From the NCBI GenBank assembly GCA_030653175.1, contig JAURZV010000105.1:1-64000 (forward strand): 64,000 nt of DNA, in the 5' to 3' direction. The position numbers and the translations under genes were made by a program. The notes beneath the pieces were generated by a model. The model made no database searches. It saw only the letters and a list, made by a program, of their open reading frames with translations, and had not been told where the DNA came from. Position 1 is the first letter of the stretch; the number at the start of each line of letters is the position of its first letter. Positions 8,684-18,420 of this stretch are shown here, piece after piece. This DNA comes from Methylobacter sp. Lineage in GTDB: Bacteria; Pseudomonadota; Gammaproteobacteria; Methylococcales; Methylomonadaceae.

Positions 8684-8816
8684 TTGTGCAAATGCGCCTG
8701 CTATGCGTGCGTTTAATTGACATTTCATAGAATGGTGAATAATCGCCAAAAATAACCTACAAAAATACTGCGACAATATGTCACATTCCATTGTCTACGT
8801 ATTTTTACTAATATAT

Positions 8817-8903
8817 ACGCAACTCTTGAGATGCAAACTTCCTCCTCGGAATTCAGAGTTTTATATCCTTCTCTAATGCGGTCTAATTGACCGCATTTTT
8901 TTT
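8817..8903 (+). ncRNA. Candidate small RNA with anti-Shine-Dalgarno loop, copy 1
   Basis: A putative transcript of about 85 nt with no coding frame. A first stem pairs AACTC (8821-8825) with GAGTT (8856-8860) and TGA with TCA. Inside it TTCC pairs with GGAA around a TCCTC loop, the complement of a Shine-Dalgarno GAGGA. An intrinsic terminator follows: AATGCGGTC/GACCGCATT with eight T (8875-8903). A TAATAT box (about 8809-8814) and TTCCAT 17 bases upstream could be the promoter. The paralogue at 15847-15933 keeps the body unchanged and has a compensated stem pair. Function and transcription are inferred. Confidence 0.6.
8875..8903 (+). terminator. Intrinsic terminator of small RNA copy 1
   Basis: A 9-bp stem AATGCGGTC (8875-8883) / GACCGCATT (8889-8897) with a TAATT loop runs into eight T residues. 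It would also stop readthrough from ntrC about 190 bp upstream. Confidence 0.85.
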
Positions 8904-9035
8904 GCCTGCAGAATTGGCGTGAGCACGACTGCATGGACAGATATTTCGGTGTCGTTTTAACAAAACAGCCTTTAAACCGGCACTCGGTTAAATCCGGTAT
9001 TCCTTCGATGTAGTTCGTCTTGCCCCCGACAATGA

Positions 9036-9920
9036 TTACTGATGCTCTGTTGCATCCAAATTATGCACCACTAGCACATAGCCCGCCTGCAACCAATATT
9101 CCTGAACAATGCCCGCCTGATGTTTTTTCATCATATCCCAAAGCTGTCTAATCAATGCATGAGGACTGGTTGATAAGGCATTTTGGCAACCGACCAGCTG
9201 CTTGCCATATAGCTTTGGATTGGCTTTTTGCTTATCTTTAAGCAAAGCCTCAAAATCGGCTAAACAAGGCGCTATTAAACCGATAATATGAGGAAAGGAC
9301 TGGGCAATACTCAAGCCTTGGGGGTCAAGATCAGCCATAGCCAGTACCGGTAAGCTGAGGTACGCTAAAAGTTGCCGCGCAGTCTTTTCACTGTAGTAGT
9401 TATCGCCTCGATATAACACCAATGGATCGGCATATTGATCCGGTAAATTCAGCCGCACGTTTTCCAGGCTATCAAAACAGCGATAGTTTTCAATCAGCAG
9501 GATGCAGTTATGTGCTGTGCCGGTTATATCTGCCAACGCCATATCCATATAACCGCGGACAGGCAACGAGTAGGATAGCCCGTTGATTTTCAACGCCATG
9601 CCTGTTAACGATCTAATCGCCAACCGGTCTTTTTTAACAGACTGTCCGGCTATTTTCTCATCCAATGCAAAAGATAAAGCCTGTTCGCGATTCATTGCCG
9701 AAAAATCAGCAACTGAAATTTGCCCAAGATCAACGCCCGTCTCATGTTTAACCACCGCAATCAGGTCATCCTTATCCTGCTGAGTGACTTTCAGCTTGTT
9801 GCCTTGTGTTTGACCGATATTGTATTGCCGATGCAGATATTTCCAGCTCTGATTAAGCGGAAAAAGCGGGTTGTCAGACCGGATCGCCCGCTCTATAACA
9901 TTTAATAATTGCTTGTTCAA
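9036..9920 (-). CDS. jetD: Toprim-domain nuclease subunit of a Wadjet-like system (JetD/MksG type)
   Basis: 294 residues, the last gene of the operon, starting in a 4-bp overlap with the kleisin gene. The C-terminal half has Toprim features of the topoisomerase VI A / JetD kind: an acidic residue in CILLIENYRCFDSL and the DxD of LAMADLDPQGLSIAQS. JetD subunits cut plasmid DNA after loop extrusion by the SMC complex. The N-terminal half is not recognised and probably docks to the complex. It is shorter than JetD proteins that carry a DUF3322+DUF2220 pair. The assignment rests on the Toprim motifs and operon context. Confidence 0.7.
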   Translation of the reverse strand: MNKQLLNVIERAIRSDNPLFPLNQSWKYLHRQYNIGQTQGNKLKVTQQDKDDLIAVVKHETGVDLGQISVADFSAMNREQALSFALDEKIAGQSVKKDRLAIRSLTGMALKINGLSYSLPVRGYMDMALADITGTAHNCILLIENYRCFDSLENVRLNLPDQYADPLVLYRGDNYYSEKTARQLLAYLSLPVLAMADLDPQGLSIAQSFPHIIGLIAPCLADFEALLKDKQKANPKLYGKQLVGCQNALSTSPHALIRQLWDMMKKHQAGIVQEYWLQAGYVLVVHNLDATEHQ

Positions 9921-11146
9921 TTTTCGGCGCTCCGAAACTGAAGAACAATATCCCTCACCTTTTTGTTACCGGAAAAATACTGACCGACATCGGCCTGAAT
10001 CAATTCCATCTGCAAGCGTTTATTGCGTTGCTGCCGTCTTAACCATTCGTTGAGCACGCAACTCAACCAGACTGAAGGTTCGATGTCATCCACGAAAGCC
10101 TGTTGAAAAGCCACGGCTGAAATGGATTGCCCCTCATTTTTCAGCACACGGTCAAAATACACGCGTAACTGTTTCCGATAAAGCGGTAAGTCCAAGGTCT
10201 TTTTGTCTGGCGGGCTTAAAGACACCGCGTTTAACCCGCGCTGTTTTTGTTTTGCCAGCATGACTTCCGTATCGATACTGATTTTTTGCGCAATTCCGAT
10301 CAAATCTTCTTCCAAAGCATGATCCAAGGGATCGGCATAGGCCAACAACGCCAAAGGCTTGATCTGGTTCCAGTGCTCGGGAATGCTGTCGCGCTCGTCC
10401 CAGTCCTGCGGCTGATAATTTTGATTTTGCTGTAGAAAAAACGCAAAACCTTGCACCAACTGCGCTCTGGCCTCTATTTGCCTGAGTTCAAATAAAAAGA
10501 CTTTTAACTTATCGAGAATATCCTGTAAGCGCTGTTGATAAATGGGCAGTAAACGAATCAGCTGATGATCCAGTAATTCATAAACCAGCGGCTGATCTTC
10601 AACAAGTTCCAGCAAAAACTCCGGTTGCAGCGCGGTAATCGCATTCACCAGTTTTTCCAGCCTGGAAATATAAAAGGCATTCTGTTTTTGTTTTTCCGCC
10701 AGGGTGCGCACATTGGCGAAACGGCTGTTAACCAGCATCAATAAATAGCGGGTATTTTCTTCCAAGGTATCGGATAAATCGAAAACCAAGCGTTCGATTT
10801 CGGCAAAATAACTATCGCAATCGTCTAACCGGCTTTCATCATACGCATCTTGATGCAGGCTGATCTGTTGTTCCAGGGTTTCAATCCAGCCGGCCAGATC
10901 GGTATCCAGTCGCCTAACCCGGTCGCTGCTCAAGGCGCTGTCTATAAACTGAGTCAAACGCCCGGCAATGCGGTAACCATCCGCGTCATGATTAACCAAC
11001 ACCTTCAATTGTTTGAGCTGGTTGAGTGCGCGCTGGTTTTGGTTGTCCTTGTAAACCACCCCGGTAAAATAAGCCTCGGCAATCAACTCGCTATGGTTAG
11101 CCAAGGCCTTAAATAAGCGCTCCAAGCCCTGTTGCGACTGGCTCAA
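9917..11146 (-). CDS. jetA: Kleisin-like subunit of a Wadjet/MukF-like complex (JetA type)
   Basis: 409 residues, rich in alpha-helix, without membrane segments. Third gene of the operon, overlapping its neighbours by 4 bp on each side (ATGA junctions). The N-terminus (LERLFKALANHSELIAEAYF onward) looks like a winged-helix kleisin head and the middle is helical and charged, as in MukF/MksF/JetA. No catalytic motif is visible, which fits a structural bridge between SMC heads. The identification is mainly by position beside the MukE-like and SMC genes; sequence alone is not decisive. Confidence 0.62.
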   Translation of the reverse strand: MSQSQQGLERLFKALANHSELIAEAYFTGVVYKDNQNQRALNQLKQLKVLVNHDADGYRIAGRLTQFIDSALSSDRVRRLDTDLAGWIETLEQQISLHQDAYDESRLDDCDSYFAEIERLVFDLSDTLEENTRYLLMLVNSRFANVRTLAEKQKQNAFYISRLEKLVNAITALQPEFLLELVEDQPLVYELLDHQLIRLLPIYQQRLQDILDKLKVFLFELRQIEARAQLVQGFAFFLQQNQNYQPQDWDERDSIPEHWNQIKPLALLAYADPLDHALEEDLIGIAQKISIDTEVMLAKQKQRGLNAVSLSPPDKKTLDLPLYRKQLRVYFDRVLKNEGQSISAVAFQQAFVDDIEPSVWLSCVLNEWLRRQQRNKRLQMELIQADVGQYFSGNKKVRDIVLQFRSAEN

Positions 11147-11766
11147 AACAGACTCTCCTGAATCGCATCGGTTTCGCCCTGCTCAACGGGGATTTGTTCG
11201 TGCTCCTGAATAAACTGCAAGGCTTGATAAAAATAATCCAGCTTGCCGGTGACTTGATAAATCAGCGTGTCGCGATTGGCCAAGCTCAGATAATTCCATT
11301 TTTGCAGGGTATTTAGCAGCTTCTCCAGCCGCCCTTTTACCGAATCATCGCCGCTGGTAAAGTCCTTGAATTTTGCAAATGTCTGTAACCGGTCTGCCAA
11401 GGCCTGATTTTGCTCAATGACTTGCAACAAACTGGAAAAGCTCAGGGTGTCCCCGGGCGATAACGCCGTATCCTGATTAAGGCAGGACATCATCATATCC
11501 AGCCATTCGACCACCGGCTGCAACTCTATGCGAAACTGCTGAAAAACTTTACGGATGTCGCTACGCGCACTGCTGTCTATGGTTCGGTAAGCCGCGTAAA
11601 AGGCCAACCGATTCTGAGTGCTGGACAAACGATAATCAAGGCGCGTTAGAAATTCATCCACCTGCGCCGCATTTTCAGGGTCTTGCAAATAACGAAAACC
11701 GGCCTCATCACTGACTTCGCAGATAAATTCGCCCTGCAACAAACGTTTTAGTAATTGATCAAACAT
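11143..11766 (-). CDS. jetB: MukE-like subunit of a Wadjet-like complex (JetB type)
   Basis: 207 residues, the size of MukE/MksE/JetB winged-helix proteins that clamp the kleisin. It begins in an 8-bp overlap with the SMC gene and ends in a 4-bp overlap with the kleisin gene, so the subunits are translationally coupled. The sequence is helical with no enzymatic motif; its N-terminus MFDQLLKRLLQGEFICEVSDE resembles the short helical start of MukE-like proteins. The assignment is by size and context. Confidence 0.6.
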   Translation of the reverse strand: MFDQLLKRLLQGEFICEVSDEAGFRYLQDPENAAQVDEFLTRLDYRLSSTQNRLAFYAAYRTIDSSARSDIRKVFQQFRIELQPVVEWLDMMMSCLNQDTALSPGDTLSFSSLLQVIEQNQALADRLQTFAKFKDFTSGDDSVKGRLEKLLNTLQKWNYLSLANRDTLIYQVTGKLDYFYQALQFIQEHEQIPVEQGETDAIQESLF

Positions 11767-14700
11767 GTTCAGCCGCCGTCAAAGGTTCAAGTGCAGACAA
11801 ATAATCCTCGTCCACCTCCATTTCGATCAGCTCCCGATAACCGAACACCTGATAACGGTTTTTGAACAGCCTTAACACTTCGGGATCAGGATCGGGAAAA
11901 GCCGAAAATAAGGTAATCCGGTTTTTAGTCAGCATTTCCACCAACACTTCAATATTCATCTGGTGCAATTCTTTGAGCTCATCCATCGGCCAGATGATAT
12001 TTAAAGGCTGATCCTTACGGATCATATTCACCAACGCAATAAAAAACACGCATAAAATCAGGTACGACAAACCGTGACTGGAAATCTGCCGCAAATCCTC
12101 GGCATGGGTCGCCCGCTTGCTGCGGCCATTTTCGGTCACGATGATTTCCAGCTCCAGCAAATTAACCAGCTTCATCTCTACCCGGCCTTTGCTCTGCAAC
12201 TGTTCAGACACCAGTCTGACAATGTCGGCAAATTCGGGAGACGGCAACTGTCCGTCATTGATTCTGTTCCAGTCATCATAATTTTTGGTGAAGCTGACTA
12301 TTTGTTCCCAGTAGCCCAGTGTTGTTACCCTGGACGTTAATCGGCCTTGAATACTTTCGATTTTTTCAAAGCGGATATTGCCATCGATATTCGCCGCTAA
12401 CCGGCGAGACAAAGAATCAATGCCACGGTCGAAACGCTCCAATGCCTGCTGATAATTCCTGATAGCGCTGCCGAAAAGTTTCGCCTGACTCATAAGCCAG
12501 CTTCTGGCGGTATCGGCTTCCGTCGCATACCAAGCCTGAATTCGGCTCAACCAGGCCAGTTCATCGCTATCAAAGCCTAATTCATCTTCGACACGGGCAA
12601 AATAGCGGCCCGGATGCGTGCCGGGAAAACGCGCCAACACCTGTTTTAAATGACGAATCAGTCCGGCTAACTCCTTGCGCAAAGTCTTGTGTTGCTCGGT
12701 CAATTTGCGGTAATCGGTCTGCAACAACGATAAGGTATGGGCATTATCAAAACCGACTTGTTCCGGTATGCGCTTTACATAGCCTGCTAACTCAGCCAGC
12801 AGGTTATTAATAGCTTTGATTTCCTTGTCAAGCTTTTGTAGCTTGGCCGTTATTAGCTCCAGTTCTTTTTTTAAGGCAGCACGTCGTTGTTGCATGTCTG
12901 CTGTTTCAGTCTCGTATCGGGTTTGCTGCTGCTTTAGTTTTACCTCAGTCTCTCGGGCTTTAACCATCAAACTATCATATAAAGACCAGTCTTTATCCAG
13001 CCAGCGTTGATAATCCTTAACCAGTTGTTCCGCCTGTTCTGCGGTCTTTACTTCAGCTTCTAATTGGCCGATTTTTGCTTCAAGGTCTTTTAAAGTGGCC
13101 GTATCGACTTTTCTGTCCTGCAAGCTCTGAATCCGTTGCTGTTCCAATTGCGCCAACTCGCTGCCTTTTTGTTGATTGACTTTATTAATAAGCTGCTGCA
13201 TTTGCTCGACTTGTAGCAACGCATCATCAGAAATCTGCTGAATTTTGGCAGCAAGTGCCAGATTTAATTGCTGTATTTCGGTTTCCAACTGTTGTTTAAG
13301 CGTTTGCAACCGGTTATTGCTTAACTTGATTTGCTCGTCCACCGTGTTTTTTTCCAGCTCCAACTTGGCCTTGCGCTCTTTCTTGCTGCGCTCAATTTGC
13401 TGCTTTAATGAGTTTAATTCTTCATCAAGTCCATTTAACTGTGTTTGAAATTGACCGGCACTAAAGGCAGCAGCTTTAGCTTGTTTTTCCAGGCTATCAG
13501 CTACCTTTTTTAATTCCTGCAACTGCTCATCGATTTTTGCCTCTGCAATGCTCAGCTGACTCAATTGGTTCCGGGCATCACTCAGCAGAGCGCGGATTTT
13601 TTCTTCATCGGCGGTATGGTCGGCCTGCAAATTATCCAGGTTTAAGCCCAGTCCGTAAAAGGTCTGTTCCAAGGCCTGTGATGCGGGTTCCAAATCGTCT
13701 CTTAACAACAAATCCGGGTTAATCACCTTGGCTATGTTGTTTATCCAATCCGGCTGATGCTCGCGCAAAAAGCCCAGTAAGGTATCCGGGTTTGCATCCA
13801 GTTGTTTTTGAAATTGCTCGCCTGCATTCTGTAGGCGCTGTTTTTCTTCATCCTGTTTACGCTTTTCGCCAACAACCGCATCGATCTGCGCCTGATTTTT
13901 CTTCGTTTCCGCTTCAATTGCTTTAGCAGTCTTTTCTGCTTTCAGCTTTTGTTGCTGAACAGTATGAAGCAGCTCCATCTTGGCTTCCCTGTTTTCAAGC
14001 AAAGCGGGATCCGGTTGAATTTGTACAATCTGACTGTTAAGCGCGCCCAAATCTCCCTGCAATTTTAATTGCTCGCCATGCAGCATATCCTCTTGCTGCC
14101 GACTCGCCAATCTGAGCGACTCTCTACCTTGCTCCGCATCCTGATTAGCAGCTGACTTAACTTCGGCTGCCTTTTGCTGCCTGTCTCTTATGCCGATTTC
14201 ATAGCCATGCTGTTGCCCGGCAAAATACCGTTCTTTTTCCGCTTTCAAGCGTTTAAACTCGGCTTCGATGTCCTGCACATCGGACATCAACTGCTTGTGA
14301 TTCTCCCGCTCCCTATCCAGGCTGTCCTTTATTTGCGTAAGGCGGCCAACCAACTGTTTTTTACCCTGTACATCCTGTTTTTCCCAATCGGCTTTTTCAT
14401 CCTCCAAAGATTTTTGTTGTTTCTGCGCCTGCGCCAAATCGGCCTTGATGGCCGCCAACTCCGAGGTAAGCGCCTGCTCCCGAGCTTCCCAGTCTTTTTT
14501 GAGCTGTTCCAATTGCTGATTACAGGCATTCCCCGCATCCTGCTCTTGTTGCAAGTTTTGTTGGTTTTGATTGCTTAAACACTGCAAGCGATACTGAAGT
14601 TCGCCCAAACTCTGCTCAACTTGAAGTAAATCACTTTCCAGCTGATTGAGCCGTTCAATTTTGTCCCGCTCCGATTCGGCTTCCTGATAGGCGCGGTATT

Positions 14701-15406
14701 CCTTGTGCCAATCATCCAGCGTTTCCATTTTCAATTCCAAAGCCAGGGAATCCCGGTTTTCATCAATACAGTTCACCAGCATTTCGCGCAAGTCGGCAAA
14801 ATCGGTGGAACGCATAAACATGCCGGTCACGATTTTTTCTATATCTTTCAGTCTATGCCCGGCACTGCCGTTGCAAAAACTGTAACGCGCAACCAATTCC
14901 CGTAATTCTTGGCCTTTTTTATGCGGCAAATTCTGGATCACCGTGCGGTAATCGCTACAGGCGGTAATCTGATTGCTGCAATTAATATGCTTTTTAATAA
15001 AATGTTTGCGCAGGTCGCGACAAGATACCGGATAGTGCGTTCCATCCCGTCGGGTTTCGATAAAATCGTCCTTGCCAAAGCCCTTATCGACAAAGAGATA
15101 ACACAACCCTTCTTCATTAGGCGAGGCATACATCAGCGCCATGCAAGTTTGTTCATGGCGCTGATATTCAAAAATAATATAAGACGATTCGTTAGGCAGA
15201 TAATGTTTGGCAAAACTGTCGGTAACCCGGCTTTTCGGCACTAACCGCCCTGGTCGTTCGCCAAAAAACAGCGGCACTAAACGTAATAATGTGGTTTTAC
15301 CGGCGCCATTAACACCGTTAAGATTGGTATGTCCATCCAGACGAACTTCCACTAATTCACCGGGTTTGTATGAATCAATAAGGATCAAGCGGTTTAATGA
15401 GTACAT
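11759..15406 (-). CDS. jetC: SMC/MukB-like ATPase of a Wadjet-like anti-plasmid system (JetC type)
   Basis: 1215 residues with the SMC plan: an ATPase head with Walker A GVNGAGKT at residues 31-38, long coiled coils (about 230-560 and 640-930, rich in Q, K, E and L), a hinge-like interruption near 560-640, and a second head half with the signature-like SSHGLSYL and Walker B LNIIWPMDE near 1135-1143. Such proteins extrude DNA loops and with JetA, JetB and JetD restrict circular plasmids. It is the first gene of a four-gene minus-strand operon. The order SMC, MukE-like, kleisin, Toprim differs from the familiar JetA-B-C-D order. The ATG at 15406 has only a weak ribosome site. Confidence 0.85.
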   Translation of the reverse strand: MYSLNRLILIDSYKPGELVEVRLDGHTNLNGVNGAGKTTLLRLVPLFFGERPGRLVPKSRVTDSFAKHYLPNESSYIIFEYQRHEQTCMALMYASPNEEGLCYLFVDKGFGKDDFIETRRDGTHYPVSCRDLRKHFIKKHINCSNQITACSDYRTVIQNLPHKKGQELRELVARYSFCNGSAGHRLKDIEKIVTGMFMRSTDFADLREMLVNCIDENRDSLALELKMETLDDWHKEYRAYQEAESERDKIERLNQLESDLLQVEQSLGELQYRLQCLSNQNQQNLQQEQDAGNACNQQLEQLKKDWEAREQALTSELAAIKADLAQAQKQQKSLEDEKADWEKQDVQGKKQLVGRLTQIKDSLDRERENHKQLMSDVQDIEAEFKRLKAEKERYFAGQQHGYEIGIRDRQQKAAEVKSAANQDAEQGRESLRLASRQQEDMLHGEQLKLQGDLGALNSQIVQIQPDPALLENREAKMELLHTVQQQKLKAEKTAKAIEAETKKNQAQIDAVVGEKRKQDEEKQRLQNAGEQFQKQLDANPDTLLGFLREHQPDWINNIAKVINPDLLLRDDLEPASQALEQTFYGLGLNLDNLQADHTADEEKIRALLSDARNQLSQLSIAEAKIDEQLQELKKVADSLEKQAKAAAFSAGQFQTQLNGLDEELNSLKQQIERSKKERKAKLELEKNTVDEQIKLSNNRLQTLKQQLETEIQQLNLALAAKIQQISDDALLQVEQMQQLINKVNQQKGSELAQLEQQRIQSLQDRKVDTATLKDLEAKIGQLEAEVKTAEQAEQLVKDYQRWLDKDWSLYDSLMVKARETEVKLKQQQTRYETETADMQQRRAALKKELELITAKLQKLDKEIKAINNLLAELAGYVKRIPEQVGFDNAHTLSLLQTDYRKLTEQHKTLRKELAGLIRHLKQVLARFPGTHPGRYFARVEDELGFDSDELAWLSRIQAWYATEADTARSWLMSQAKLFGSAIRNYQQALERFDRGIDSLSRRLAANIDGNIRFEKIESIQGRLTSRVTTLGYWEQIVSFTKNYDDWNRINDGQLPSPEFADIVRLVSEQLQSKGRVEMKLVNLLELEIIVTENGRSKRATHAEDLRQISSHGLSYLILCVFFIALVNMIRKDQPLNIIWPMDELKELHQMNIEVLVEMLTKNRITLFSAFPDPDPEVLRLFKNRYQVFGYRELIEMEVDEDYLSALEPLTAAEHV

Positions 15407-15800
15407 TTTAATTTTCTATCGATTGATTACAGACTGTATCCAGTTGCAAGGAAATAAGGTGAATAATTTCCGCCGACTGATTGCAGATTGGTACTTTTCT
15501 TTGGTTTGAGGCGAGTCATCAAACTTACTATATTATCATTCCCCCGCGCTCCGTCGTGGAAATGATGACAATAGGCACTCTCTTTTTGAGCATAAAAGTG
15601 TATGTTTCGGTTTCCCCGGGACTTGACTGCCGCTACATTCTGACCGTCCGCTTCGATGCCGTGATCCCTGATGCAATATATACGCAGCCTCATTAAGCCG
15701 GTCGTGCTGAGCATGAACTTGTCGCCTATCCTGAATACATCGAAAGGCATGAATGGATGAATGGCTTGTTCCGCCCAAACCTCTGCGACATTCTGAAGCG
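15407..15800. other. Upstream region of the Wadjet-like operon
   Basis: About 390 bp between the SMC gene start and the right-hand direct repeat. Open frames here (for example 15427-15750 minus) have no recognisable domain. It should contain the minus-strand promoter of the operon, but no strong -35/-10 pair stands out. Confidence 0.4.
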
Positions 15801-15846
15801 CGACAATATGTCACATTCCATTGTCTATCATTTATCGCTAATATAA

Positions 15847-15933
15847 CTGCAACTCTTGAGATGCAAACTTCCTCCTCGGAATTCAGAGTTTTATATCCTT
15901 CTCTAATGCGGCCTAATCAGCCGCATTTTTTTT
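15847..15933 (+). ncRNA. Candidate small RNA with anti-Shine-Dalgarno loop, copy 2
   Basis: Paralogue of the RNA at 8817-8903. The AACTC...GAGTT stem with the inner TTCC-TCCTC-GGAA hairpin is unchanged. The terminator stem is AATGCGGC/GCCGCATT with eight T. Compared with copy 1, a T-A pair (8882/8890) is replaced by C-G (15912/15920), a compensatory change that supports selection on RNA structure. A TAATAT box lies just upstream, with TTCCAT 17 bases before it. It is divergently oriented relative to the SMC gene. Confidence 0.6.
15905..15933 (+). terminator. Intrinsic terminator of small RNA copy 2
   Basis: AATGCGGC (15905-15912) pairs with GCCGCATT (15920-15927) around a 7-base loop and is followed by a run of eight T. 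Confidence 0.85.
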
Positions 15934-16128
15934 GCCTGCCGTTTAGGCAAACCAGCTTGTAACTATTCATCCACAGATCAACACGGATTAAACGGATTCA
16001 TAAACTGATTCCAGAAAGCCGTCTCCTAACTCATTGTAAACCCCATAGAAACTCTTGATGAAGATGACTAAGTTCTTTATATTGCAACTGCTCGCACCTT
16101 ATTAAGGCGCAAAGTTGACTTGAAAGCG

Positions 16129-16236
16129 ACCAAAGCAAGCTTTGGACTCCAGAAAGTGTGGATGCCGGAGTTCAAAGCTTCCGCTCCTGCTCACGCCCCT
16201 TACCTACATCCATGTAGGCAAAGCTTGCTTTGAACC
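16129..16236. repeat. CCAAAGCAAGCTTTGG repeat with nested insert
   Basis: The left arm ACCAAAGCAAGCTTTGGACT starts at 16129. The right arm CCGGAGTTCAAAGCTT is interrupted after 16180 by about 45 bp carrying CCTACATCCATGTAGG, then CAAAGCTTGCTTTG resumes. An uninterrupted relative is at 36645-36702. It looks like one short repeat inserted in another, in the otherwise empty region 15940-16397. Confidence 0.65.
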
Positions 16237-16397
16237 TTATGATTTTAAACAGCACGTTTTGAGGTGCGCTGGAGCGAGCGTCAGTTAGGGTGAGTAGTTA
16301 CCTTTATATTTTAGTTTATCAGTGTGTATCTGTGTCGCCTAGAGGCGCCTACTTTTGGCAATCTGTGGCTGAATAGTTACGCCAGCTTTTGTATGCC

Positions 16398-17519
16398 CTA
16401 CAAAACCTCATCGTGACATACCGGGATTTCTCCACTACTCGCCCCCCTCCCCGAAGGCGAGAAATATTTCCGTCTAAAATAAAGCGCCACCTTGACCAGT
16501 CCGATCAGCACCGGAACCTCGACCAAAGGGCCGATGACTGCGGCAAAAGCTTGCCCGGATTGCAGCCCGAAAACCGCTACGGCCACCGCGATGGCCAGCT
16601 CGAAGTTATTGCCGGCGGCGGTAAACGACAGCGTGGCACTGATGCGATACCCTGCCCCTGCCTTGGCCGACATATAAAACGTGACCAGAAACATGATCAG
16701 AAAGTAGATGACCAACGGTACGGCGATGCGCGCCACATCCATTGGCAGCTGCACAATATATTCGCCCTTGAGGGAGAACATGACCAGAATCGTGAACAGC
16801 AGCGCAATCAGGGTAACGGGGCTGATTTTGGGTATGAATGTTTCCTCATACCACTGCAAACCCTTGCGTCGCACCAGAAAAAAACGCGTGAACATGCCGC
16901 CGAAAAAAGGAATACCCAGATAAATCATCACGCTTTTGGCGACTTGGATCATGGTAACCTGAACTTCAAGGCCGGAAGCGATGCCCAGCCAGTCGGGCAG
17001 GACAGTAACGAAAACATACGCATAAACGGAAAAGAACAGCATCTGGAAGATGGAGTTGAAAGCTACCAAGCCTGCGCAGTATTCGCTATCGCCCTCGGCC
17101 AACTCGTTCCAGACCAGAACCATCGCGATGCAGCGGGCCAGCCCGATGATAATCAGGCCTACCATGTACTCCGGATAGTCCCGCAAAAAAATAACGGCCA
17201 GTGCGAACATCAGCACCGGGCCGATAATCCAGTTCTGGATCAGGGACAGCAGCAGAACCTTGGTGTTCTTGAAGACCTTGGGTAATTCCTCGTAGCGCAC
17301 CTTGGCCAGCGGCGGGTACATCATCAGGATCAGGCCGATAGCGATGGGCATGGAAGTGGTTCCCACCTGGAAGCGGGTCAGCCATTGGGTGAAACTTGGA
17401 ATGAAATAGCCCAGCGCGATCCCGCCCGCCATACTCATAAATATCCATAGCGTCAAAAACCGCTCTACGAACCCCAAACGTTTTGGAGCGTGGTCGAATT
17501 GTGTATTCATGGTTGTCAT
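16398..17519 (-). CDS. acr3: Arsenite efflux transporter, ACR3 family
   Basis: 373 residues with about ten hydrophobic segments, a bile-acid/ACR3-type inner-membrane exporter of arsenite. The conserved cysteine motif [13 protein letters not shown] and the [16 protein letters not shown] segment are diagnostic of ACR3. It is the last gene of arsR-arsC-acr3 on the minus strand, only 11 bp after arsC. The C-terminal tail after LYFRRKYF is short and poorly conserved. It removes the arsenite made by ArsC. Annotation pipelines often call this family arsB. Confidence 0.95.
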
Positions 17520-17530
17520 TTTCCGATGCC

Positions 17531-18010
17531 TTAAAGGGTTTCTGCGCCGATCTTGTTCAGCGCCTCGGTCAATTCCGGCTTGGACATTGTTTCAACCGGC
17601 AACGCCAATAGCTGATGTATCCGCTTTTCCAGAGCCGCGTAGGTCGCCTCGAAAGCCTCCTCAATAACTTCAGGTCTGCCGGTGACATGGGCAGGGTCCG
17701 GCAAGCCCCAATGCGCCCTGATCACATTATTCAGATAGACGGGGCAGACTTCCCCGGCAGCGCTGTCGCAAACGGTAATGGCAATATCGATGTCTTTATC
17801 GTCGAACTCGTCCCAGGATTGACTGGAAAATCCCTCGGTTGAGATACCGTGACGCGCTAATGTCGCCAGCGCGTTGGAGTTTACCTTGCCGGTCGGATGA
17901 CTGCCGGCGGAAAAAGCCTGAAATCGGTCGCCGCCCAAATGATTAATAAGCGCCTCGCCCAACACACTTCGGCAAGAATTCCCGGTACACAAAATCAAAA
18001 CTTTTAACAT
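17531..18010 (-). CDS. arsC: Arsenate reductase, thioredoxin-linked low-MW phosphatase type
   Basis: 159 residues. The P-loop CTGNSCRS near the N-terminus is the catalytic cysteine site of low-molecular-weight tyrosine-phosphatase-like ArsC, and the [15 protein letters not shown] region supplies the two further cysteines of the relay. It reduces arsenate to arsenite for export by the adjacent ACR3. It lies between arsR and acr3. A second, unrelated glutaredoxin-type ArsC is at 33447-33794. Confidence 0.93.
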
Positions 18011-18030
18011 GGCTCGCTCCTAATATTTAT

Positions 18031-18050
18031 ATATTCGAATAAACGAATAT
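18031..18050. promoter_or_regulatory. Palindrome between arsR and arsC, candidate ArsR operator
   Basis: ATATTCG (18031-18037), six bases, CGAATAT (18044-18050): an exact dyad in an AT-rich 56-bp gap between the arsR stop and the arsC start. ArsR-family repressors bind AT-rich dyads with such TTCG/CGAA half-sites, so this may be a second, internal control point. Direct evidence is only the palindrome and its place. Confidence 0.5.
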
Positions 18051-18066
18051 TATAAGACAAAAAAAT

Positions 18067-18420
18067 TCAGTTGCAATATTTCGTCATCTCGGGGCGACCG
18101 CCCATTGCTTGCAATCGGCCGCTGTCTTTTTGCTGCTTGGCATTGGTCGCAAGCTGTTTGACGGTAACGTCCAGAATCTCAAATACCCAGGCCGGTAATT
18201 CGGGGTTAATTTGATAATACACCCACTGTCCTTCGCGGCTGTCCAGCAGCAGATTGCTCTGTCGCAATTGCGCGAGGTGGCGCGAGATTTTGGGCTGCAA
18301 TAAATCCAGCGCATGGGTCAGCTCGCAAACGCAGAGCCTGCCTTCTTTACGCAGCAAAACCACGCAGCGCAAGCGTGTCTCATCGGCCAGGCATTTAAAT
18401 AGTGTGGTGGGGGTAATCAT
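18067..18420 (-). CDS. arsR: ArsR-family arsenic-responsive repressor
   Basis: 117 residues with the ArsR winged helix-turn-helix (LFKCLADETRLRCVVLL through HLAQLRQSNLLLDSREGQWVYYQI). Cysteines in RLCVCELTHAL match the metalloid-sensing CVC motif just before the recognition helix. It is the first gene of the arsenic operon and most likely represses it until arsenite binds. It is followed after 56 bp by arsC, with a palindrome in the gap. Confidence 0.93.
   Translation of the reverse strand: MITPTTLFKCLADETRLRCVVLLRKEGRLCVCELTHALDLLQPKISRHLAQLRQSNLLLDSREGQWVYYQINPELPAWVFEILDVTVKQLATNAKQQKDSGRLQAMGGRPEMTKYCN

Follow-up and report, generated by a model that had tools for sequence, protein, structure and literature searches.

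Sibling small RNA genes behind a RegA/PrrA-like promoter box in Methylobacter: candidate redox-controlled anti-Shine-Dalgarno RNAs of methanotrophs

In the 64,000-nucleotide stretch of Methylobacter sp. DNA that we have analysed (contig JAURZV010000105.1, positions 1 to 64,000, called here the window), two short and nearly identical sequences are located at 8817-8903 and 15847-15933, and the question that they raise is what they are, what controls them and what they act upon. The initial annotation, made from the letters alone, had read them as a pair of paralogous regulatory RNAs of no recognised family, with a hairpin loop complementary to ribosome-binding sites. Our comparative analysis indicates that 8820-8903 and 15850-15933 are real, conserved small RNA (sRNA) genes, i.e. 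siblings of approximately 84 nt, and we find it rather probable that their products are RegA-activated, trans-acting anti-Shine-Dalgarno (anti-SD) RNAs, which would block translation by pairing with Shine-Dalgarno (SD) sequences. The elements of the two genes are the following:

8770-8787 (+): RegA/PrrA-like promoter box of copy 1 (GCGACAATATGTCACATT), 18 nt, from its conservation in the aligned copies and its fit to published motifs
8809-8814 (+): -10 element TAATAT of copy 1, with a TANNNT spacing that is conserved in homologues
8820-8903 (+): sRNA gene copy 1, from homologues in the family and covariation; the exact start is presumed
8821-8826/8855-8860 (+): predicted outer stem of copy 1, which encloses the predicted inner hairpin at 8839-8851
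8861-8874 (+): putative anti-SD linker of copy 1, containing UAUCCUUCUC, from 5-mer conservation; unpaired in predicted folds
8875-8903 (+): predicted terminator of copy 1, with a T-run to 8903
15800-15817 (+): RegA/PrrA-like promoter box of copy 2
15839-15844 (+): -10 element TAATAT of copy 2, at offset 21 after the box
15850-15933 (+): sRNA gene copy 2, with the layout of copy 1 and the linker at 15891-15904, from the 63-nt identity and a covariance-model score of 108.3 bits

Both copies are found where they had been annotated, and the identical body of 61 nt that had been reported for them is slightly longer, at 63 nt (8819-8881 = 15849-15911); with the promoter included, the copies share 88% identity over 149 nt. 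A 25-nt core has two occurrences in the window and, with up to three mismatches allowed, no occurrence in 100 shuffled sequences. The stretch between the box and the start differs between the copies, in keeping with the drifted spacer that had been noticed, and the TTCC-TCCTC-GGAA hairpin and the strong terminator are also present. The fold z-scores against shuffled sequences are -4.36 for copy 1 and -2.62 for copy 2; the lowest-energy fold of copy 2 lacks the outer stem in an 87-nt piece, while an 83-nt piece forms it. One terminator pair has indeed changed from T-A (8882-8890) to C-G (15912-15920), but the pair next to it, C-G in copy 1 (8883-8889), is C-A in copy 2, so that the two copies alone prove little with regard to compensation.

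The homologues of the two genes offer a broader comparison. Searched with BLASTN, the 146-nt unit has matches in 21 of 23 Methylobacter genomes, the present one included (14/14 of the good ones), and in 108 of 201 genomes of the family, spanning 23 of its 29 genera, with Crenothrix among the carriers. Within the genus there are up to four copies per genome, often as tandem siblings (three in Methylobacter tundripaludum SV96), while the present genome has two: the same search returns the two window places, and all other matches have E values of at least 0.04. The presence of at least two near-identical copies per genome is a feature shared with the anti-SD sibling class of the NmsR/LhrC kind. 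A covariance model, as the initial annotation had suggested, has been built; under the stricter filters of Infernal, it matches 187 of 301 genomes of the order, where the matches listed belong to the same family except for a weak one (E 0.006), and 3 of 369 genomes of the class, two of them in the family and one weak (E 0.007). Rfam 15 has no match in the window at its curated gathering scores, and a known Rfam family has been rejected as the identity of the RNAs; a permissive Rfam search returns three chance-level matches (L001/L002, E 3-4), all of them outside the sRNA.

The fold has been examined in 83 distinct copies. A search with a hidden Markov model (HMM) gave 101 matches, two of which are partial and stand outside the 99-row alignment; the removal of 13 divergent rows (L082-L086) and one duplicate left 85, and the further removal of L098:16669-16742, which has a 10-nt deletion, and of L090 gave the final set. 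In this set the stem is kept: 92.0% of the 1547 cells are paired, two-sided changes occur in 10 of the 19 pairs, and there are 63 compensatory cells, compared with a mean of 19.7 in shuffled alignments (none of 500 as high) and with 2-16 in slid structures. The outer stem AACUCU/AGAGUU, for example, becomes AAUUCU/AGAAUU in L067-L070, the inner stem UUCC/GGAA becomes UCUC/GAGA or CCCC/GGGG, and the terminator strands vary in step. Covariation thus supports the predicted fold, and RNAalifold alone recovers the terminator and, in the outer stem, four pairs.

The same 83 copies bear on the possibility that a small protein is encoded from a conserved ATG (8831). The ATG is present in 81 copies, but the frames that it opens scatter between 1 and 27 codons and 35 of the 81 have no stop before the aligned end, for which reason the unit is not a coding one; we have rejected the small open reading frame, which is the least credible of the explanations considered. 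A role of the window copies as leaders of the next gene has also been rejected, as the downstream long genes (9036-9920 and 16398-17519) lie on the opposite strand.

With regard to the control of the two genes, the initial annotation had proposed the dyad GACAAT-12-ATTGTC as an operator; it does occur in both window copies, but its right half varies in the homologues, and it has been rejected as the operator. The conserved operator candidate is instead an 18-nt box (8770-8787 in copy 1) that resembles the RegA/PrrA motifs: the pattern GCGRCAATNTGYCACATT is found in 99/99 aligned copies (75 without a mismatch, 18 with one and 6 with two), TANNNT follows exactly 21 nt after it in 93 of the 99, and many of the copies have a second, similar box just upstream of the first. 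Scored at the specified positions of the motifs as these are quoted in PMC5506826, the box agrees with PrrA at 11/12, with RegR at 9/11 and with the Rhodobacter capsulatus RegA motif at 11/12; the PrrA level is reached at just 11 of 128,000 window positions, while the level for R. capsulatus RegA is common (777/128,000). As the box ends at the place where a -35 hexamer would end, and inspection of the aligned promoters by eye revealed no good -35 at the usual spacing, transcription of the sRNA is likely to be activator-dependent.

The box also leads to further units in the same genome, where it is matched with up to two mismatches at five places, namely the two window copies, C39:19689, C19:42703 and C28:15460, each of them followed by TANNNT at offset 21. 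The C39 box is located upstream of a third paralogue (covariance model 35.5 bits, E 0.002) with a different inner hairpin and the linker CUAUCCUUCCUCUU, the C19 box is followed by a fourth unit of hairpin, linker and terminator (28 bits, E 0.07), and the C28 box (+, L153) precedes a possible fifth unit, with a UUACC/GGUAA hairpin, a strong terminator and no adjoining long open reading frame. By the base composition of the window, approximately 0.09 matches would be expected by chance at up to one mismatch and approximately 2 at up to two, and the C28 unit is accordingly the weakest of the five; with three mismatches, the search of the genome is near background (37 places, compared with 31 for the reversed pattern), so that the case for the C39 unit is made by the RNA model and that for the C28 unit by the spacing and the hairpin-terminator, and not by the pattern on its own. 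In addition to the window copies, the genome therefore appears to have two other units of this layout and perhaps a third, and the pair that had been described belongs to a larger paralogous set.

As to what the RNAs act upon, we have counted the anti-SD 5-mers CCUCC, CCUUC, UCCUC, UCCUU and CUCCU, which complement purine-rich SD sequences, in the 83 copies. The linker that precedes the terminator contains one in 80 copies and the hairpin in 68; 65 copies have both, and all 83 have at least one. By the stricter measure of CCUCC/UCCUC, the hairpin leads with 59 copies against 8 for the linker. Since the linker scores 80/83 and the hairpin 68/83, the TCCTC loop that had been singled out is one of two anti-SD sites: the motif is real, but the linker, unpaired at UAUCCUUCUC in the predicted folds, is steadier than the loop. 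The hairpin motif is missing in some genera, 15 of the 83 copies carry the motif in the linker alone, by which the loop has been rejected as the sole active site, and in L067-L070, where the hairpin motif is gone, the linkers read UCCUCC in 5 of 8. The linker is thus, by its sequence, the more constant anti-SD site and the hairpin the stronger motif where it is kept; conserved, unpaired pyrimidine motifs complementary to the SD are a second feature shared with the NmsR/LhrC kind. The regulatory-RNA reading of the initial annotation has held in its conserved genes, anti-SD potential, terminator and compensatory changes, while its operator and its main anti-SD site have been corrected.

The linker is not the only constant part of the RNA, and the active part of a regulatory sRNA could alternatively be the near-invariant 5' stretch UUGAGAUGC, which forms an asymmetric internal loop, or a protein-binding site, e.g. 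in a titrator of an RNA-binding protein, with the linker serving mainly as a chaperone site ahead of the terminator. Residues U8, G9, A10, A12 and U13 are invariant in the 83 copies, G11, G14 and C15 are nearly so, and the stretch is more constant than the hairpin loop; yet the third and fourth paralogues and RNAs of other families of the order lack UUGAGAUGC and keep a UCCUUC- or UCUUCC-like linker, and we regard this alternative as unlikely, albeit the most serious of those considered here.

The activator that reads the box is suggested by the C19 unit, which is divergent from an operon for a RegB-like kinase, in which the GGASNPI motif is found, and a RegA-like regulator that combines a receiver with a Fis-type helix-turn-helix domain. 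All but one of 61 genomes of the family have a close homologue of RegB. We have taken the best 30 of the 61 matches, 5 of which are unreadable by the motif test, and in 14 of the 25 readable loci regB has a box (with up to two mismatches) upstream and in divergent orientation, with an sRNA-like unit of the same type after it. With up to one mismatch, the box occurs in 39 of 41 relatives, at 127 places, compared with 12 for the reversed control. It is also found in the other families of Methylococcales (14 of 16 genomes, 29 places); among these 14 box-bearing genomes, 8 have paired boxes 167-318 bp apart and 8 have a RegB-like gene within the fetched flank. Downstream of 28 of the 29 boxes, which we have examined, a terminator together with CCTYC is found in 13 (1.5% of random positions), CCTYC in 21 (20% in the control) and TANNNT at offset 21 in 24; for boxes of the family itself, picked from the same search, terminator and CCTYC are found in 9/23 (control 1.2%) and TANNNT at offset 21 in 19/23. 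The RNAs in these other families are not detected by the covariance model (R1), but several of them have a linker such as UUUCCUCCUCUU ahead of the terminator. The box therefore shares two features with members of the RegA/PrrA regulon, namely its resemblance to the published motifs and its genomic association with regBA, and we infer that RegA binds it.

An activator other than RegA might read the box instead, with the sRNA and its action as proposed. The sites of the RegA family are described as degenerate and dissimilar, and the motifs failed as search tools in Acidithiobacillus, according to the account in PMC5506826; furthermore, outside the order, 14 of the 19 genomes with a perfect box have no RegB- or RegA-like gene within approximately 1.5 kb, such genes being found nearby in the other 5 (the search, with tblastn at E <= 1e-5 rather than an HMM, covered fetched flanks of approximately 1-1.5 kb). 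Against this stand the adjoining of the box to regB in many lineages and its likeness to the PrrA motif, at a level so rarely reached in the window; another activator is, in our judgement, improbable, somewhat more so than a different active part.

The preferred reading, of RegA-activated anti-SD siblings, builds on the conservation, the fold with its covariation, the box with its fixed spacing and its place beside regB, and the anti-SD linker; from these we infer expression, the binding of RegA and its direction, base pairing, targets and signal, in the following sequence. A RegB/RegA-type two-component system would become active under redox imbalance, and RegA would occupy the box, which at approximately -50 to -33 takes the place of a -35 hexamer, and would recruit RNA polymerase to the TANNNT element 21 nt downstream. 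The RNA would fold into its hairpin and terminator with the pyrimidine linker (UAUCCUUCUC) left free, as would be, in many species, the UCCUCC-type motif of the hairpin; pairing of the linker or the hairpin with SD regions would then block the translation of several mRNAs, and the paralogous unit that is divergent from regB would close a feedback loop.

Several observations weigh against this reading. The promoter was part of the HMM by which the 99 copies were collected, and copies with the box are thereby favoured; RNAalifold alone predicts no inner stem, which is therefore less certain. The two proteins of the C19 operon have NF033792 and NF033791 as their best-scoring models, but they score below the NCBIfam equivalog cut-offs (RegB 212.9 bits, cut-off 350; RegA 187.4, cut-off 250) and are not members of these equivalog families, which is the reason for the label "RegB/RegA-like". 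The remaining 11 of the 25 readable regB loci showed no such box, and the automatic test did not detect terminator and CCTYC together at 15 of 28 boxes of the order and 14 of 23 of the family. In genomes from outside the order the box is mostly found ahead of protein genes, and it is thus not an sRNA-only signal. A search for perfect complements before start codons gave no recurrent target gene in the genus genomes or in the present one: the 23 genomes have 7 such places, compared with 5 for the reversed control, and the present genome has 2, compared with 3, a result that neither proves nor excludes repression by SD pairing.

The protein genes headed by the box outside the order include (L326, L331, L324, L330, L337, L339) TonB-dependent receptors and outer-membrane-protein-like genes; two of the receptors have TonB-copper as their best model, below the cut-off, and the box also heads a gene for a multihaem-cytochrome-like protein. 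In some of these loci RegB/RegA-like genes adjoin. A link of the box to metal uptake is possible there.

Across Methylococcales, the findings can be read as an order-wide post-transcriptional arm of RegB/RegA, i.e. a superfamily of tandem and dispersed sRNA genes in which only the RegA box and its rigid spacing, a UCCUYCUCU-like anti-SD linker and the terminator are kept, while the hairpins turn over freely between genera; we hold the chances for and against this extension to be evenly balanced. The place divergent from regB may be ancestral, as box-headed units occur there in several families, with the copies in the window as dispersed offshoots. On this view, the negative half of the redox response, exerted at translation, would fall to the RNAs, which could also account for effects of RegA on genes that it does not bind; for increases that depend on RegA, however, an sRNA that represses would have to act through an additional step. 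If the preferred reading is true, a redox two-component system of methane oxidisers switches on a bank of RNAs by which ribosome-binding sites are capped; the box and the 21-nt spacing would be a testable marker of the regulon, and the family would be a comparative case of an sRNA whose promoter and seed are more constant than its fold. Our searches of the open-licence literature revealed no work on native regulatory sRNAs that act in trans in gammaproteobacterial methanotrophs; for Methylomonas, one study deals with a synthetic sRNA and another with the housekeeping RNAs rnpB, ssrS and ffs.

The genes around the copies bear on yet another explanation, namely that the copies are not genes but what is left of a mobile cassette, or its borders, in the form of direct repeats on either side of the operon at 9036-15406. 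This four-gene operon (-), which lies between the window copies, has matches to DUF7281, MksE and DUF3584 (SMC-like) and only weak matches in PADLOC, and is likely to be an Mks/Wadjet-like condensin system; an operon of this kind is also found between the copies in genome G013 and in M. tundripaludum SV96, and several relatives have other genes there (multicopper oxidase and SCO genes in SV96 and G012, others in L067-L070). However, in many relatives the copies are 165-243 bp apart, a frequent tandem spacing, with nothing between them, and such bare pairs contradict the cassette; the first copy is located directly 3' of rsmA, itself preceded by pdxA, in 26 of 60 loci and of ntrC in 13 of 60, on the same strand. 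Covariation is present, and searches of plasmids, phages and viral contigs returned no match to the sRNA, on which ground a mobile or phage origin has been rejected, including the transposable element that the initial annotation had considered. We regard the cassette explanation as very improbable.

The copies border gene cassettes of 7-24 kb in L091/L092, L093, L097, L095/L096 and L067-L070, while L098, L105, L107 and L108 have bare tandem pairs instead; the sRNA array may be a hotspot of insertion or recombination. Just 3' of copy 2, at 15959-16380, approximately 420 bp between 20-nt inverted repeats (95% complementary) look like a small non-coding element. The sRNA array is followed at 16398-18420 (-) by genes for an SBF-type transporter, a protein of the low-molecular-weight-phosphatase fold and an ArsR-type regulator, which look like an arsenic cluster and also follow the array in several relatives.

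Among known systems, the closest in layout are the NmsRA/NmsRB RNAs of Neisseria meningitidis, described in PMC5362039 as tandem, near-identical siblings with two UC-rich anti-SD stretches, the first of them single-stranded, between stem-loops, and the second in a hairpin loop; these RNAs repress mRNAs, those of tricarboxylic acid cycle genes, by pairing over the SD; they differ in belonging to another bacterial class and in having three stem-loops, and that description includes no RegA-type box. The LhrC RNAs of Listeria, as described in PMC13350326, are similarly a multicopy, functionally redundant family, with two stem-loops joined by a single strand and several CU-rich motifs, whose pairing partners are AG-rich ribosome-binding sites, but in a Gram-positive host. 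By analogy with both, pyrimidine motifs acting on ribosome-binding sites are the most likely mode of action of the window RNAs; the likeness, drawn from descriptions, is one of functional class, and we do not file the RNAs as homologous members.

With regard to their control, the counterpart is PcrZ of Rhodobacter sphaeroides, an sRNA under PrrA, the RegA counterpart, which takes part in an incoherent feed-forward loop that acts on redox-controlled genes (PMC8307010); it differs in acting on photosynthesis genes and in being regulated also by AppA and FnrL, and tandem siblings and an anti-SD linker are absent from its description there. The nearest host is Methylomonas sp. DH-1, also a type I methanotroph, where, according to PMC13274454, a pair with the same GGASNPI quinone motif in RegB has been shown to function as RegB/RegA and responds to redox imbalance on methanol. 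The regulon reported for DH-1 differs in comprising protein genes only, the main text making no mention of sRNA, small RNA or noncoding RNA, but two of its RegA-dependent promoters, tbdr and tonB, are not bound by RegA, and the effects may be indirect (PMC13274454): it is our conjecture that a RegA-driven bank of sRNAs could carry part of such indirect effects.

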